DNA from: Methylorubrum sp. B1-46
GTDB taxonomy: Bacteria; Pseudomonadota; Alphaproteobacteria; Rhizobiales; Beijerinckiaceae
DNA: 64,000 bases
Direction: 5' to 3'
Assembly: GCF_021117295.1 (NCBI RefSeq)
Contig: NZ_CP088247.1
Coordinates: 4,665,001 to 4,729,000 of the forward strand
Below, piece by piece: positions 11,122-15,113 of the stretch (within the stretch, counting starts at the first letter, position 1; each line of letters starts with the position of its first letter). Made by a program: the position numbers and the translations under genes. Under the pieces are notes generated by a model. It was given only the letters and a program-made list of their open reading frames with translations, did not search any database and was not told the DNA's origin.

Positions 11122-11766
11122 GTGCCGGACGAGGCCCGCGCCCGGATGGTCGAGACGCAGTTGATCGCCCGCGGCATCCGCGATGCCGCCGTCCTCGACG
11201 CGATGGGAAATGTGGCGCGCGAGGCCTTCGTGCCGCCCGATGGCGCGGCAGAGGCCTACAGCGACGGGCCGCTGCCGATCGGTGCGGGGCAGACGATCTC
11301 CCAGCCCTACATCGCCGCCCTGATGATCGAGGCGCTGGCGCTGCGCCCCGGCGAGCGGGTGCTCGAGGTCGGGGCCGGTTGCGGCTACACGGCCGCCGTG
11401 CTGTCGCGGATGGGGGCGCAGGTCTACGCCGTCGAGCGCCAGGCGGCTCTGGCCGAGACGACGCGCGCCCGTCTTGCCGCCCTCGGTTTCGCCTGTGTGC
11501 GCCTGCGCGTCGGCGATGGCGGGGCGGGCTGGCCGGAAGCCGCGCCCTTCGACGCGATCCTCGTCTCCGCGGCGGGCCCCGCGATCCCGGAGGCGCTCAA
11601 ATCCCAGCTCAAACAGGCGGGCCGCCTCGTCATCCCGGTCGGCCCGCCCGGCGGCCAGACGCTGCTGCGGCTGACCCGGCGCGGGCCGGACCGGTTCGAG
11701 AGCACCGATTTCGGCCCGGTCTCCTTCGTGCCGCTGCTGCGGGGCGTGGCGGCAGAGAGCCGGTGA
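11122..11766 (+). CDS. pcm: Protein-L-isoaspartate O-methyltransferase
   Basis: This is a 214-residue protein when read from GTG 11122, the usual family length; ATG 11146 is an alternative. The sequence shows ARMVETQLIARGIRDAAVLD, the active-site loop GAGQTISQPYIAALM and the SAM-binding motif VLEVGAGCGYTAAVLSRMG. The enzyme methylates isoaspartyl residues in aged proteins so that they can revert to aspartate, using SAM in the cytoplasm. It lies just upstream of the heat-shock gene, which fits a protein-repair theme, although the two are 233 bp apart and probably separately controlled. Confidence 0.93.
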   Translation: MPDEARARMVETQLIARGIRDAAVLDAMGNVAREAFVPPDGAAEAYSDGPLPIGAGQTISQPYIAALMIEALALRPGERVLEVGAGCGYTAAVLSRMGAQVYAVERQAALAETTRARLAALGFACVRLRVGDGGAGWPEAAPFDAILVSAAGPAIPEALKSQLKQAGRLVIPVGPPGGQTLLRLTRRGPDRFESTDFGPVSFVPLLRGVAAESR

Positions 11767-11912
11767 GGCGGTCCCGCCCGTCATGACGGCATCCGGTCAG
11801 GGCAACGACCTCCCGCCTCGGGCCGGGACGGCAACCGAGCGCTCTCGTATCGAGATCCGCGAAAAGATGTCAGAAGCCCGGAACCCGGCCCAAGCCAGCG
11901 CGTTACGCGCGT

Positions 11913-11999
11913 GCGAGGCCCTGACGGGCTCGCGGGTTGGGCGCCGGATAGGGTGTCCGGCGGCCCTCGTCATCACGTTGCTCCAAGGAGGATGTGGTC
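11913..11999 (+). promoter_or_regulatory. Putative ROSE-type RNA thermometer in the hsp20 5' leader
   Basis: Three stem-loops can be drawn just ahead of the hsp20 start. Stem 1 is GCGAGGCCC/GGGCTCGC (11913-11933). Stem 2 is GCCGGA/TCCGGC (11943-11961). A terminal stem (about 11976-11995) pairs TTGCTC with the ribosome binding site AAGGAGGA. The segment TTGCT matches the conserved U-(U/C)-G-C-U of ROSE thermometers, where a G-G contact and a U-rich pair make the anti-Shine-Dalgarno helix heat-labile. ROSE elements are known ahead of hsp20 genes in rhizobia and their relatives. Folding by eye only; a covariance search would decide. Confidence 0.62.
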
Positions 12000-12485
12000 A
12001 TGAGAACCTTCGACTTCGCTCCCCTCTACCGCTCCACCGTCGGCTTCGACCGGCTGTTCTCCGGGCTCGACCAGGCCGAGACCTCGGCCGCGTGGCCGCC
12101 CTACGACATCGAGAAGCTGACCGAGGACGCCTACCGCATCACCATGGCGGTGGCCGGCTTCGCGCAGGACGAGATCGAGCTGACCCAGCACGACACCACG
12201 CTCCTCGTCCTGGGCCAGAAGAAGGGCCAGGAGCGTGAGCGGGAATTCCTGCATCGCGGCATCGCCGGGCGCACGTTCCGCCAGAGCTTCAACCTCGCCC
12301 AGCACGTCAGGGTCACGGGCGCCAGCCTGGAGAACGGCCTGCTGACGGTCGAGCTGAAGCGTGAGGTGCCGGAGGCGCTCAAGCCCCGCCGGATCGCCAT
12401 CGGCGGCGCGCAGACCGCCGTCGGGCAGGACAACGCGCCGAATGAGACGGCGGCGCAGGTCGCGGATCGCTCCAAGGCCGCCTGA
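12000..12485 (+). CDS. Small heat-shock protein, Hsp20/alpha-crystallin family
   Basis: This 161-residue protein starts at ATG 12000, 8 bp after AGGAGG; GTG at 11994 is in frame but too close to the binding site. The N-terminus MRTFDFAPLYRSTVGFDRLF is typical of class A rhizobial/E. coli IbpA-like proteins. The alpha-crystallin domain follows (PPYDIEKLTEDAYRITMAVA through the A-x-x-x-n-G-L motif, here ASLENGLLTVEL). The C-terminal PRRIAIG holds the I-x-I/V-like anchor. It binds unfolding proteins and keeps them refoldable. The leader carries a putative ROSE thermometer, so translation should rise with temperature. The next gene begins 104 bp downstream and may be on the same transcript. Confidence 0.93.
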   Translation: MRTFDFAPLYRSTVGFDRLFSGLDQAETSAAWPPYDIEKLTEDAYRITMAVAGFAQDEIELTQHDTTLLVLGQKKGQEREREFLHRGIAGRTFRQSFNLAQHVRVTGASLENGLLTVELKREVPEALKPRRIAIGGAQTAVGQDNAPNETAAQVADRSKAA

Positions 12486-12589
12486 CCCGACGCGCGAACC
12501 ACAGCACGAGCCGGCCTCCCCGGGAGCCTGCGCTTTCCGGGGATCGCTTCCTTTTCGCACGCCACTCCGTGCCTTCAGGGAGATGACCC

Positions 12590-13114
12590 GTGACGATGAT
12601 CGAGACGTTTTCGCACCATTCCGGCCCCATGAACCCGGCTGGCATGAACTCGGCTGGCATGAACTCGGCTGGAACGCCGGCTGCCTCGTTCGACGCGTGG
12701 CAGGCGCTCGTCGCCCCCGGCGACGTGTTCCGCCATCCGCGCGAGGTGCTGGCCCACCCGCTCCTGTCCCGTGCGGACAAGCGGGCGATCCTGGCCTCCT
12801 GGGCCTCCGATGCCTGCGCCCTGGAGAACGCGCCCGCGCTGCGATGCCTCGCCGGTTGCCGGGCCGAGCCGGTGCCGGTCGATGCCGTCCTCGCCGCGCT
12901 CGGCACCCTCGACCCGGAGCGTTCCCCGGCAAAGGCGGTCTCGCCGGGCGGCCGGGCCCTGCCCCGGCGGGCGCGGCGATCGTCGAACCTGCACCGATTC
13001 CTTCGCCGCCGCCGGAACGACGACGACGATCCGCCCCCCTGCCCGGCGGCGGCCATGCCGCGTCCGCGGACGCCGCCGAGCGGTGCGGCCCTGGCGGTCG
13101 GCATCCCGGCCTGA
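12590..13114 (+). CDS. Conserved protein of unknown function downstream of hsp20
   Basis: This 174-residue protein opens with GTG (12590) after AGGGAG. The centre, FRHPREVLAHPLLSRADKRA followed by ILASWASDACALENAPALR, resembles a family I recall from alphaproteobacteria that has no assigned role and often lies near stress genes. The N-terminus carries a perfect or near-perfect 15-bp repeat three times (12629-12673), giving MNPAG-MNSAG-MNSAG. The C-terminal third is Arg/Pro-rich and looks disordered. It may be co-expressed with hsp20. The function is unknown. Confidence 0.72.
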   Translation: MTMIETFSHHSGPMNPAGMNSAGMNSAGTPAASFDAWQALVAPGDVFRHPREVLAHPLLSRADKRAILASWASDACALENAPALRCLAGCRAEPVPVDAVLAALGTLDPERSPAKAVSPGGRALPRRARRSSNLHRFLRRRRNDDDDPPPCPAAAMPRPRTPPSGAALAVGIPA

Positions 13115-13139
13115 TGCGCGGTGGCGCCCCGCCTGAGCC

Positions 13140-15113
13140 TTACCGGCGGCCGAACAGCCGCTCGATATCGGCGAGCCCGAGCGTGACGAAGGTCGGGCGG
13201 CCGTGGTTGCACGAGCCGGAGAGCGGCGTCGCCTCCATCTCGCGCAGGAGCGCGTTCATCTCCTCGGGCTTGAGGCGGCGGCCGGCGCGGATCGAGCCGT
13301 GGCAGCTCATTCGCGACAGGATCGCGTCGAGGCGCCGGCTCACCGGGTCGGGATCGCCCGCGCCGGCCGGGCCGCCCTCCTCGACGCCGCTGGCTTCGAG
13401 TGCGTCGAGCACGTCGAGCACGAGCCCCTTCACCGAGCCGCCCGCGAGCGCCGAGGGCACGGCGCGTACCAGCACCGCCCCAGGGCCGAACGCTTCCAGG
13501 GTGAGACCCAGCCGTTCCAGATCGGGGGCGGCCTCGACGAGGCGGTCGGCCTCCTCGGGCGCCATCTCGACCACGTCGGGGATCAGCAGCCCCTGGGCGA
13601 GCACGCCGCCGCCGGCCCGCTCGCGCTTCAGCCGCTCGTAGACGAGCCGCTCGTGGGCGGCGTGCTGATCGACCAGCACGATGCCGTCGCGGGTCTGAGC
13701 GAGGATGTAGGTCTCGTGGATCTGCGCGCGGGCGGCGCCTAGCGGATGCGCGTCGGGATGGGCCTCGACTTCCGGGGCCGCTTCCGGCTCGGGCCGCAGG
13801 TCGGCGCCCGGCGGGGCGAGGTCGGCGGCGAACAGCGCCTGCGGCGTCTCGGCGAAACCCGTTCGCCCCGCGTCGAAATCCGGACGCGGCGCCGCTCGGT
13901 AGCCCGCGGGCGCGGCCACCGAGGGGCCGGAGAACAGGCGGCTGGCCGGGCGCGGGCTCAGGGAGCTCGCGGCAGAGGCGCCCGAATGCACGGCGAACCG
14001 GCCCGCCGCCATCGGCGGAGCGCTCCCGCCGGCGCGAAGCGCGTCCAGAGCCGCATGGGTGCCCGTGCTGGACGAGCGGGCGCCGGCCCGGCGCAGTGCC
14101 TCGTGGATCGCGCTGACGATCAGCGCCCGCACCAGCCCCGGCTCGCGGAAGCGCAGCTCGGTCTTGGCCGGATGCACGTTCACGTCGACGAGGGCGGGAT
14201 CGCAGGTGAGCGCGAGCGCCAGCACCGGATGCCGGTCGGAACTCATCGTGTCGGCATAGGCCCCGCGCACGGCGCCGAGCAGCAGCCGGTCACGGACCGG
14301 GCGCCCGTTGACGACGAAGTGGATGTGGTTGGCCGCCCCGCGGTGGAAGGTCGGCAGGCCGACATGGCCGGCGAGCGCGAACCCCTCGCGGGCCATGTCG
14401 ACGGGCACGGAATTGCCGGGAAAGTCCGGCCCCAGCACCGCGCCGAGCCGGCGCAGCAGCGCCGCCGGACCCGGCTCGCTCTCGGCGGGGAACACCAGCG
14501 GGTTGCCGCTCTCGGTGCGGAGCGTGAAGCGGATCTGCGGCTGCGCCACCGCGAGCCGGCGCAGGATCTCGGCGACGGCGGCGGTCTCGGCCCGGTCGGA
14601 TTTGAGGAATTTCAGCCGGGCCGGGGTCGCGGCGAAGAGTTCGGTGACTTCGATCCGGGTGCCGCGGGTCGCGGGCGCCGGGCGCACCGGGCCCTTGGTG
14701 CCGGAATCGATCGTCAGGCTCACCCCCTCCCCCTCGGCGGTGCGCGACGTGAGGGTGAGCCGCGAGACCGCGCCGATCGAGGGCAGGGCCTCGCCGCGAA
14801 AGCCGAGCGAGCCGATCCGGGTGAGATCGCCGTCGGGCAGCTTCGAGGTGGCATGGCGCTCGACCGCGAGCGCCAAGTCGTCGGCCCCCATGCCGATCCC
14901 GTCATCGATGACGCGGATCAGGCGGCGCCCGCCGCCCTCGATCGCCACCTCGATGCTGCGCGCACCGGCATCGATCGCGTTCTCGACCAGCTCCTTGACC
15001 GCGGAGGCCGGCCGCTCGACCACCTCGCCCGCGGCGATGCGGTCGACTAGGATCGGGTCGAGGCGGCGGACTGCGGCACGCGGCGGATCGCGGAAATCGG
15101 GGGCGGCGGACAT
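13140..15113 (-). CDS. mutL: DNA mismatch repair protein MutL, endonuclease type
   Basis: This 657-residue protein starts MSAAPDFRDPPRAAVRRLDP (15113); in-frame sequence further upstream is not MutL-like. The GHKL ATPase motifs are clear: VVERPASAVKELVENAIDAG, DDGIGM and GFRGEALPSIG. The C-terminal domain keeps VDQHAAHERLVYERLK near residue 478, which satisfies the nicking-endonuclease motif DQHA-x2-E-x4-E found in MutL of bacteria that lack MutH. CHGSIRAGRRL and CNHGRPT, two further metal-site motifs, are present. MutL links MutS mismatch recognition to strand incision. It is 70 bp from the acyl-CoA dehydrogenase gene on the same strand. Confidence 0.96.
   Translation of the reverse strand: MSAAPDFRDPPRAAVRRLDPILVDRIAAGEVVERPASAVKELVENAIDAGARSIEVAIEGGGRRLIRVIDDGIGMGADDLALAVERHATSKLPDGDLTRIGSLGFRGEALPSIGAVSRLTLTSRTAEGEGVSLTIDSGTKGPVRPAPATRGTRIEVTELFAATPARLKFLKSDRAETAAVAEILRRLAVAQPQIRFTLRTESGNPLVFPAESEPGPAALLRRLGAVLGPDFPGNSVPVDMAREGFALAGHVGLPTFHRGAANHIHFVVNGRPVRDRLLLGAVRGAYADTMSSDRHPVLALALTCDPALVDVNVHPAKTELRFREPGLVRALIVSAIHEALRRAGARSSSTGTHAALDALRAGGSAPPMAAGRFAVHSGASAASSLSPRPASRLFSGPSVAAPAGYRAAPRPDFDAGRTGFAETPQALFAADLAPPGADLRPEPEAAPEVEAHPDAHPLGAARAQIHETYILAQTRDGIVLVDQHAAHERLVYERLKRERAGGGVLAQGLLIPDVVEMAPEEADRLVEAAPDLERLGLTLEAFGPGAVLVRAVPSALAGGSVKGLVLDVLDALEASGVEEGGPAGAGDPDPVSRRLDAILSRMSCHGSIRAGRRLKPEEMNALLREMEATPLSGSCNHGRPTFVTLGLADIERLFGRR

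Follow-up and report, generated by a model that had tools for sequence, protein, structure and literature searches.

The 64-kb window, by which we mean the whole stretch of 64,000 nucleotides that was analysed, contains a gene for a small heat-shock protein (hsp20) behind a short, hairpin-rich leader, which raises the question of whether that leader senses temperature and which promoter supplies the mRNA on which it would act. A preliminary description, made from the letters of the sequence, had proposed that the leader is a putative ROSE RNA thermometer.

A ROSE element covers the start site of hsp20

An Rfam scan bears out this proposal. The ROSE family RF00435 covers 11912-12006 on the + strand with 55.5 bits against a cut-off of 45, and the match is end to end, with model positions 1-94 of 94 aligned and an E value of 1.1e-7 for the 501 bases searched or 1.4e-5 for the whole 64-kb window. 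No Rfam family other than ROSE rises above its own cut-off in the window. The span first given for the element, 11905-12002, was right as to its location and a few bases off the Rfam boundaries at its ends. The features of the leader and the gene behind it are as follows.

11912..12006, + strand: ROSE RNA thermometer, whole element (RF00435, 55.5 bits)
11912..11934, + strand: ROSE hairpin 1 (minimum-energy fold; both-side changes in 7/9 pairs among 25 aligned sequences)
11939..11965, + strand: ROSE hairpin 2 (minimum-energy fold; both-side changes in 7/11 pairs among the 25 aligned sequences)
11966..12004, + strand: ROSE hairpin 3, the presumed thermosensing stem, with the Shine-Dalgarno sequence and the AUG (minimum-energy fold)
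11978..11983, + strand: UUGCUC (TTGCTC in the DNA), anti-Shine-Dalgarno strand with the ROSE motif U(U/C)GCU, G11980 bulged
11985..11992, + strand: Shine-Dalgarno sequence AAGGAGGA
12000..12485, + strand: hsp20, small heat-shock protein of 161 amino acids (PF00011, 62.4 bits)

As expected of a ROSE element, the small heat-shock gene starts at 12000, within the 3' hairpin that bears the Shine-Dalgarno sequence. In the 5.5-Mb genome from which the window comes, 150 of 425 candidates were scored and this was the sole RF00435 match above the cut-off; above-cut-off matches occur in 18 of 41 genomes (this one and 40 relatives), with matches at E<=1 in 24 of the 41. The runner-up in the same genome (L002, C1:3422186-3422260, 23.4 bits) was considered as a second ROSE element and rejected as a chance match, there being no hsp20 at the locus; its end also lacks a Shine-Dalgarno sequence followed by an AUG, which counts against it as well. 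We conclude that 11912-12006 is a true ROSE RNA thermometer concealing the start of a small heat-shock gene and that, as an RNA element, it is an ordinary new member of its family.

The predicted fold and its conservation

At each of seven temperatures from 20 to 50 C the three hairpins come out as the minimum-energy fold of 11912-12006, and the whole leader has a predicted folding energy of -51.2 kcal/mol at 37 C. In predicted hairpin 3, CUC pairs with the GAG at 11988-11990 and UU with the GA at 11991-11992; G11980 is bulged, the loop contains the AAG of the Shine-Dalgarno sequence, and the stem takes in the AUG (12000-12002) together with the two bases after it. Both the three stem-loops ahead of the hsp20 ATG and the pairing of TTGCTC with the ribosome-binding site in the last of them, as first described, are thus present in this fold. 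The preliminary description had also named a covariance-model search as its check, and a failed search together with an unpaired AAGGAGG as the outcome that would speak against it; what was found is a significant RF00435 match, and in the fold most of the Shine-Dalgarno sequence is paired. When longer stretches were folded (11880-12030 and 11860-12060), hairpin 3 was unchanged and bases of hairpins 1 and 2 were partly paired with sequence upstream of 11912, a pairing that matters only if the 5' end of the mRNA lies well upstream of 11912.

Conservation of the fold was judged on an alignment of 25 sequences, consisting of the window and 24 of the other 40 RF00435 places from the 41-genome scan. 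These 24 comprise 20 places above the cut-off that have a locus, three slightly below it (L024-L026), and L027 (28.5 bits), which was kept in the set with a poorly aligned 5' half; four above-cut-off places without a locus and the remaining weak places were left out. In L027 a short repeat seems to sit between hairpins 2 and 3. With the window fold imposed on all 25 sequences, 92.6% of cells pair, compared with 89.2% (sd 0.4) in shuffles and 41-51% in a control with slid partners. Both-side changes occur in 15 of 36 pairs of the whole structure, and none of 500 shuffles reaches the observed values. Helices 1 and 2 covary across the aligned sequences. For helix 3 taken alone, 98.5% of cells are paired against 39-64% in the slid control; 7 of its 16 pairs are invariant, one has a both-side change, and no covariation beyond that of shuffles was detected, with 22 of 500 shuffles matching its pairing percentage. 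The compensatory change expected of a ROSE element is therefore seen for the structure as a whole and not for helix 3 by itself, where conservation and the slid control, rather than covariation, argue for the predicted stem. The UUGCUC motif is invariant in 25/25 aligned sequences.

A sigma-EcfG type promoter motif lies directly upstream of the element

Next to the element stands a GGAAC/CGTT block, which has the form of a sigma-EcfG motif.

11880..11884, + strand: GGAAC, -35 box of a putative sigma-EcfG type promoter (exact GGAAC-N16-CGTT match)
11901..11904, + strand: CGTT, -10 box of the same putative promoter, ending 7 nt before ROSE

The motif GGAAC-N16-CGTT spans 11880-11904 with a spacer of 16 and fits the consensus GAAC-N16,17-C/GGTT given for sigma-EcfG of M. 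extorquens in a passage of PMC4814048. Because a single match is close to chance level in 64 kb, with 0.72 matches to GGAAC-N16-CGTT expected in the whole window, the case for this promoter rests on conservation. This was assessed in 34 Methylobacterium loci, that is, the window and 33 others with a ROSE match to R1, a model built from the 25 aligned ROSE sequences. Of the 34, 30 have the motif in the 70 nt ahead of ROSE (window included; L051, L060, L062 and L067 lack it), and shuffles of the same loci gave a mean of 0.05 and a maximum of 1/34 (n=200). In all 30 loci with the motif, the distance from the start of GGAAC to the first base of ROSE is 32-33 nt. An alignment of the sequences upstream of ROSE, made for 26 of the 34 loci, likewise shows the GGAAC...GTT block standing beside ROSE amid surroundings that have diverged, the mean column identity being 43%, with the first G and the AAC invariant and the second G nearly so. 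The motif therefore keeps a fixed place in orthologues beyond what chance would give. Genome-wide there is no enrichment (66 matches in the window's own genome versus 58 in a reversed control), so that positional conservation alone is used here as evidence.

The same genome encodes NepR (61.2 bits), whose gene is surrounded by a cluster of six GGAAC-N16,17-CGTT matches at C1:3131220-3133249. A sigma70 scan of 11700-13200 called no promoter; shuffles also gave 0.0, so this result says little. Transcription most likely starts from a sigma-EcfG promoter of the PhyR/NepR general stress response, presumably at about 11910-11913 if the usual promoter spacing applies.

An alternative that we consider unlikely, and yet the most serious competitor, retains the ROSE thermometer and has a housekeeping or heat-shock sigma factor do most of the transcribing, with GGAAC/CGTT a coincidence or a minor promoter and heat the sole signal. 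Of the 13 loci from other genera, one has the EcfG motif (a Devosia MAG, L075), and 11 carry at the same spot a sigma32-like CTTGAA...CCnAAT, a pattern that we wrote down after inspecting these sequences. It is found, however, in 0 of the 34 Methylobacterium loci. A sigma32 consensus with CTTGAA is quoted in part of PMC3669281; a passage of PMC3989490 describes the small heat-shock genes of S. meliloti as RpoH-dependent and a sigma70-like promoter as predicted for the M. loti operon. These reports, like the missing genome-wide enrichment of the EcfG motif, speak for this alternative, but the EcfG boxes of Methylobacterium hold their position and spacing while their surroundings diverge, which favors a sigma-EcfG promoter at this locus.

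Modelled temperature response and the proposed two-input gate

ViennaRNA calculations leave the GAG core of the Shine-Dalgarno sequence at most 10% unpaired up to 60 C; the wobble base G11991 alone loosens, with an unpaired fraction of 0.15 at 25 C and of 0.54 at 60 C. The leader of E. coli ibpA, which part of PMC3669281 names among the best-studied ROSE-like thermometers, served as a control thermometer and showed no clear opening in the same calculation either, so the modelled closed state is uninformative, rather than negative, on opening by heat. Hairpin 3 of the window has a predicted energy of -15.9 kcal/mol at 37 C as compared with a mean of -9.4 in relatives from other genera (n=10 of 13), and given this greater predicted stability it might open at high temperature only. 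That translation would be released on heating is inferred from membership in the ROSE family.

These calculations bear on a second and quite improbable alternative, in which the hairpins sense no temperature and serve as a static attenuator of translation or stabilise the mRNA. The stability of the fold (-51.2 kcal/mol at 37 C) and the pairing of most of the Shine-Dalgarno sequence at every modelled temperature would suit such a role, but the ibpA thermometer does not melt in the same model either, and the full-length match to a thermoregulator family with its conserved U(U/C)GCU and bulged G argues for a sensing leader. That the hairpins arose by chance can for practical purposes be dismissed: strong hairpins are common in GC-rich DNA such as this leader, but the window-wide E value of 1.4e-5, the failure of all 500 shuffles and the above-cut-off matches in 18 of 41 genomes speak against it.

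The best joint explanation, which we hold with considerable confidence, is thus a ROSE thermometer leader transcribed from an EcfG promoter and acting as a two-input gate. ROSE would account for all, or almost all, of the 5' leader on the hsp20 mRNA, with the putative sigma-EcfG promoter, whose -10 box ends 7 nt upstream of hairpin 1, driving its transcription. At normal temperature hairpin 3 would pair the Shine-Dalgarno sequence and start codon and keep translation off; on warming, its imperfect stem, with a bulged G and several G-U pairs, would loosen and let the ribosome enter. General stress would in this way cause the mRNA to be made, and heat would cause it to be translated.

Two types of ROSE-hsp20 locus in the genus

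When 59 genomes of the genus were searched with R1 at E<=0.05, 76 places were found in 48 of them, and 11 genomes gave no R1 match under the strict filters used. One of the 76 (L185) has no Shine-Dalgarno-AUG pattern and an encoded start unlike that of Hsp20, and is probably a chance match. At this place (G158:C1:2847803-2847902) an EcfG-type motif and a weak match to the ROSE model (31.2 bits) precede a gene that does not resemble hsp20, and no UUGCU was seen.

The remaining 75 loci fall into two types. A second hsp20 type, whose protein starts with MRQFDLAPLYR or close variants, accounts for 19 of them, and the 56 without a match to this N-terminus are referred to as window-type. The EcfG motif is present in 48 of the 56 window-type loci, a count made without a shuffle control and one in which loci are not independent trials, since they are related by descent and the 34-locus and 56-locus sets share genomes. 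Of the eight window-type loci without it, L128, L137, L157 and L164 retain GGAAC with an altered -10 box, L160 and L163 show CTTGAAACC together with CATTAT, and L166 and L168 are more divergent. In the second type, 18 of 19 loci (the exception being L181) have a sigma32-like CTTGAA...CnGATAT. Their ROSE elements score 30-35 bits with R1; four were also tested against Rfam, giving two matches below the cut-off of 45 (35.0 and 35.4 bits) and, for L179 and L186, no match at E<=0.1, the 41-genome scan having given 28.4 and 28.1.

The two types also differ in the predicted strength of the lock on the Shine-Dalgarno sequence. Specifically, the hairpin that holds it averages -13.3 kcal/mol at 37 C in the window-type (sd 1.7, n=56) versus -8.5 in the second type (sd 1.2, n=19), and among genomes with both types the window-type hairpin is predicted to be the more stable in 15 of 16. 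Common descent means that these counts, too, are not made up of independent trials. In a tree of hsp20 built on 49 rows, a selection of those found, the second type falls outside the group of window-type and Mesorhizobium-like proteins with 88/97 support; as its forks are weakly supported and the bootstrap is unsettled, we claim no direction for the promoter change.

Several further ROSE matches were noted. The genome of the window has a degenerate one (L004; R1 25 bits, E 0.02, not among the 76) with no Rfam ROSE match at E<=0.1 and a promoter region that fits neither pattern exactly. Another genome of the genus (G021) has five ROSE matches above the Rfam cut-off, on contigs C72, C138, C166, C193 and C208. 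In Methylobacterium sp. WSM2598 a degenerate ROSE-like match (L069 1693-1810, 34.2 bits) lies about 0.4 kb ahead of an intact one, with a fragment of the same -10 region in front of it, and is a possible duplication relic. The ROSE matches at L052 2267-2393 and L048 2216-2328 are about 16-32 nt longer than usual.

A conserved gene of an unnamed family follows hsp20

Two features lie downstream of hsp20.

12517..12543, + strand: strong intergenic hairpin after hsp20, lacking a U-run (fold judged by eye, no shuffle control)
12590..13114, + strand: uncharacterised gene, member of a conserved family marked by the tail DDDDPPPCPA

A terminator scan of 11700-13200 called none, and GC-rich hairpins were seen, again by eye, in most of 20 folded intergenic regions between hsp20 and the downstream gene. 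The hairpin at 12517-12543 may be a processing or attenuation site.

Neither Pfam (E<=0.001) nor NCBIfam (E<=1) gives a match for the product of 12590-13114. Its homologues number 1897 at E<=1e-3, and those among the 120 matches listed are named hypothetical or uncharacterized protein; in its own genome the gene is single-copy among the 150 of 205 candidates scored. DDDDPPPCPA is invariant in 17/17 proteins chosen for a family alignment (A2). Tail variants are DDDEPPPCPA in L042, L043 and L047, DLPPCPA in L048 and CPV in L062, and the tail is missing from L066 and from nine distant members of L100-L108. In L066 (2263-4314, Methylobacterium sp. J-026) two frames of the family stand behind hsp20 genes, the first of them without the acidic-proline tail. 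The predicted structure of the window's protein (mean pLDDT 66, pTM 0.45) is confident for helices around residues 50-77 and 97-107 only.

At 46 of the 48 loci of the downstream family found in named genomes there is an hsp20 upstream on the same strand, with ROSE before it in 46/46 (R1, E<=0.002), in a search that favors close relatives because its queries were exact peptides from the protein encoded in the window. Of the two loci that depart from this order, L068 lies on a contig that begins shortly upstream, and L083 matches in the tail region only and has no hsp20 within 3 kb upstream. In an even sample of 121 genomes of the order, the family profile matches 16 places in 15 genomes. Seven of the 16 lie downstream of an RF00435 match at E<=0.01, one (G093) lies about 0.5 kb upstream of such a match, and eight have no ROSE match, one of these (G047) adjoining a contig end. 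Of these eight, G082 was also checked with R1, and it is the one place among them with an hsp20 nearby. Conversely, this sample has 11 ROSE places at E<=0.01, and for three of them (G029, G050 and G052) the genome gave no family match at E<=0.001, although in G029 a weak one adjoins the ROSE unit. The idea that the family is always tied to ROSE was accordingly rejected, the association holding for 7 of 16 places in the even sample.

Two unusual arrangements were noted. In two genomes of the order (L109, 3415-4485, and L110, 3409-4149) the third gene after ROSE-hsp20-hsp20 fuses NDUS4 (PF04800) with a weak match to the family core. In L101 (G093:C61, 3398-4463) a family gene lies just upstream of ROSE with a seemingly shortened hsp20, and the divergent genes look by eye like groES and groEL.

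Judging from the conserved gene order, hsp20 and the downstream gene are probably carried on one mRNA, and this order makes their co-induction more likely. We would guess that the downstream protein is a partner of Hsp20.

A wider proposal can be offered tentatively, and we hold it with more doubt than belief: the ROSE-hsp20 loci of Methylobacterium would be of two kinds, one with a sigma32-type promoter and a loose lock and the other with an EcfG promoter, a tight lock and the unnamed gene. The unit with EcfG would then act as a gate with two inputs, in which stress, for example on the leaf surface, preloads the mRNA and heat releases its translation, with the DDDDPPPCPA-tail protein as the partner of Hsp20. 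Two types of ROSE-hsp20 within one genus that differ in promoter motif and predicted lock strength offer a natural comparison of how transcriptional and RNA-level temperature control combine. The locus also connects a protein family that lacks annotation with the small heat-shock system.

Comparison with known systems

What looks new here is the setting: in related operons one and the same position before the thermometer is taken by a promoter motif of either heat-shock or general-stress type, and within one genus two ROSE-hsp20 types differ in this motif and in predicted lock strength. A search of open-licence PubMed Central returned no paper joining the general stress response, an RNA thermometer and EcfG, none combining hsp20, Methylobacterium, heat shock and EcfG, and none combining a ROSE element, an RNA thermometer and Methylobacterium; two papers there mention Methylobacterium along with an RNA thermometer, and PMC8092242 mentions EcfG, with the ROSE element in its reference list only. 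Many subscription papers fall outside this search, so the novelty of the EcfG-ROSE pairing is not established by it.

The hallmark of ROSE-like elements is, according to part of PMC11342760, U(U/C)GCU with a bulged G; deletion of this G is reported there to cause a marked drop in heat induction, and changing a second base as well a complete loss. The same source describes a G-G pair in the NMR structure from B. japonicum and a bulged G instead in the crystal structure from P. stuartii. The small heat-shock operons of M. loti and S. meliloti are stated to carry ROSE in a passage of PMC3989490.

With ROSE elements such as ROSE1 of Bradyrhizobium japonicum hspA, the element described here shares the three stems, the UUGCU anti-Shine-Dalgarno strand with its unpaired G and a small heat-shock gene directly after, a likeness judged on the RF00435 model. 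It differs from its ROSE relatives in other genera in having an EcfG-type motif where they have a sigma32-like one, and in a Shine-Dalgarno hairpin that is predicted to be more stable. The ROSE-like elements of Pseudomonas and of E. coli ibpA are also leaders of small heat-shock genes whose 3' hairpin blocks the Shine-Dalgarno sequence through a U(U/C)GCU-type stem; those of Pseudomonas, however, have two hairpins and a sigma32 promoter, as described in part of PMC3669281. Finally, the putative promoter of this locus shares GAAC-N16,17-C/GGTT with the sigma-EcfG promoters of M. extorquens, as these are given in PMC4814048. It differs from them in that its -10 box stands directly against a thermometer.
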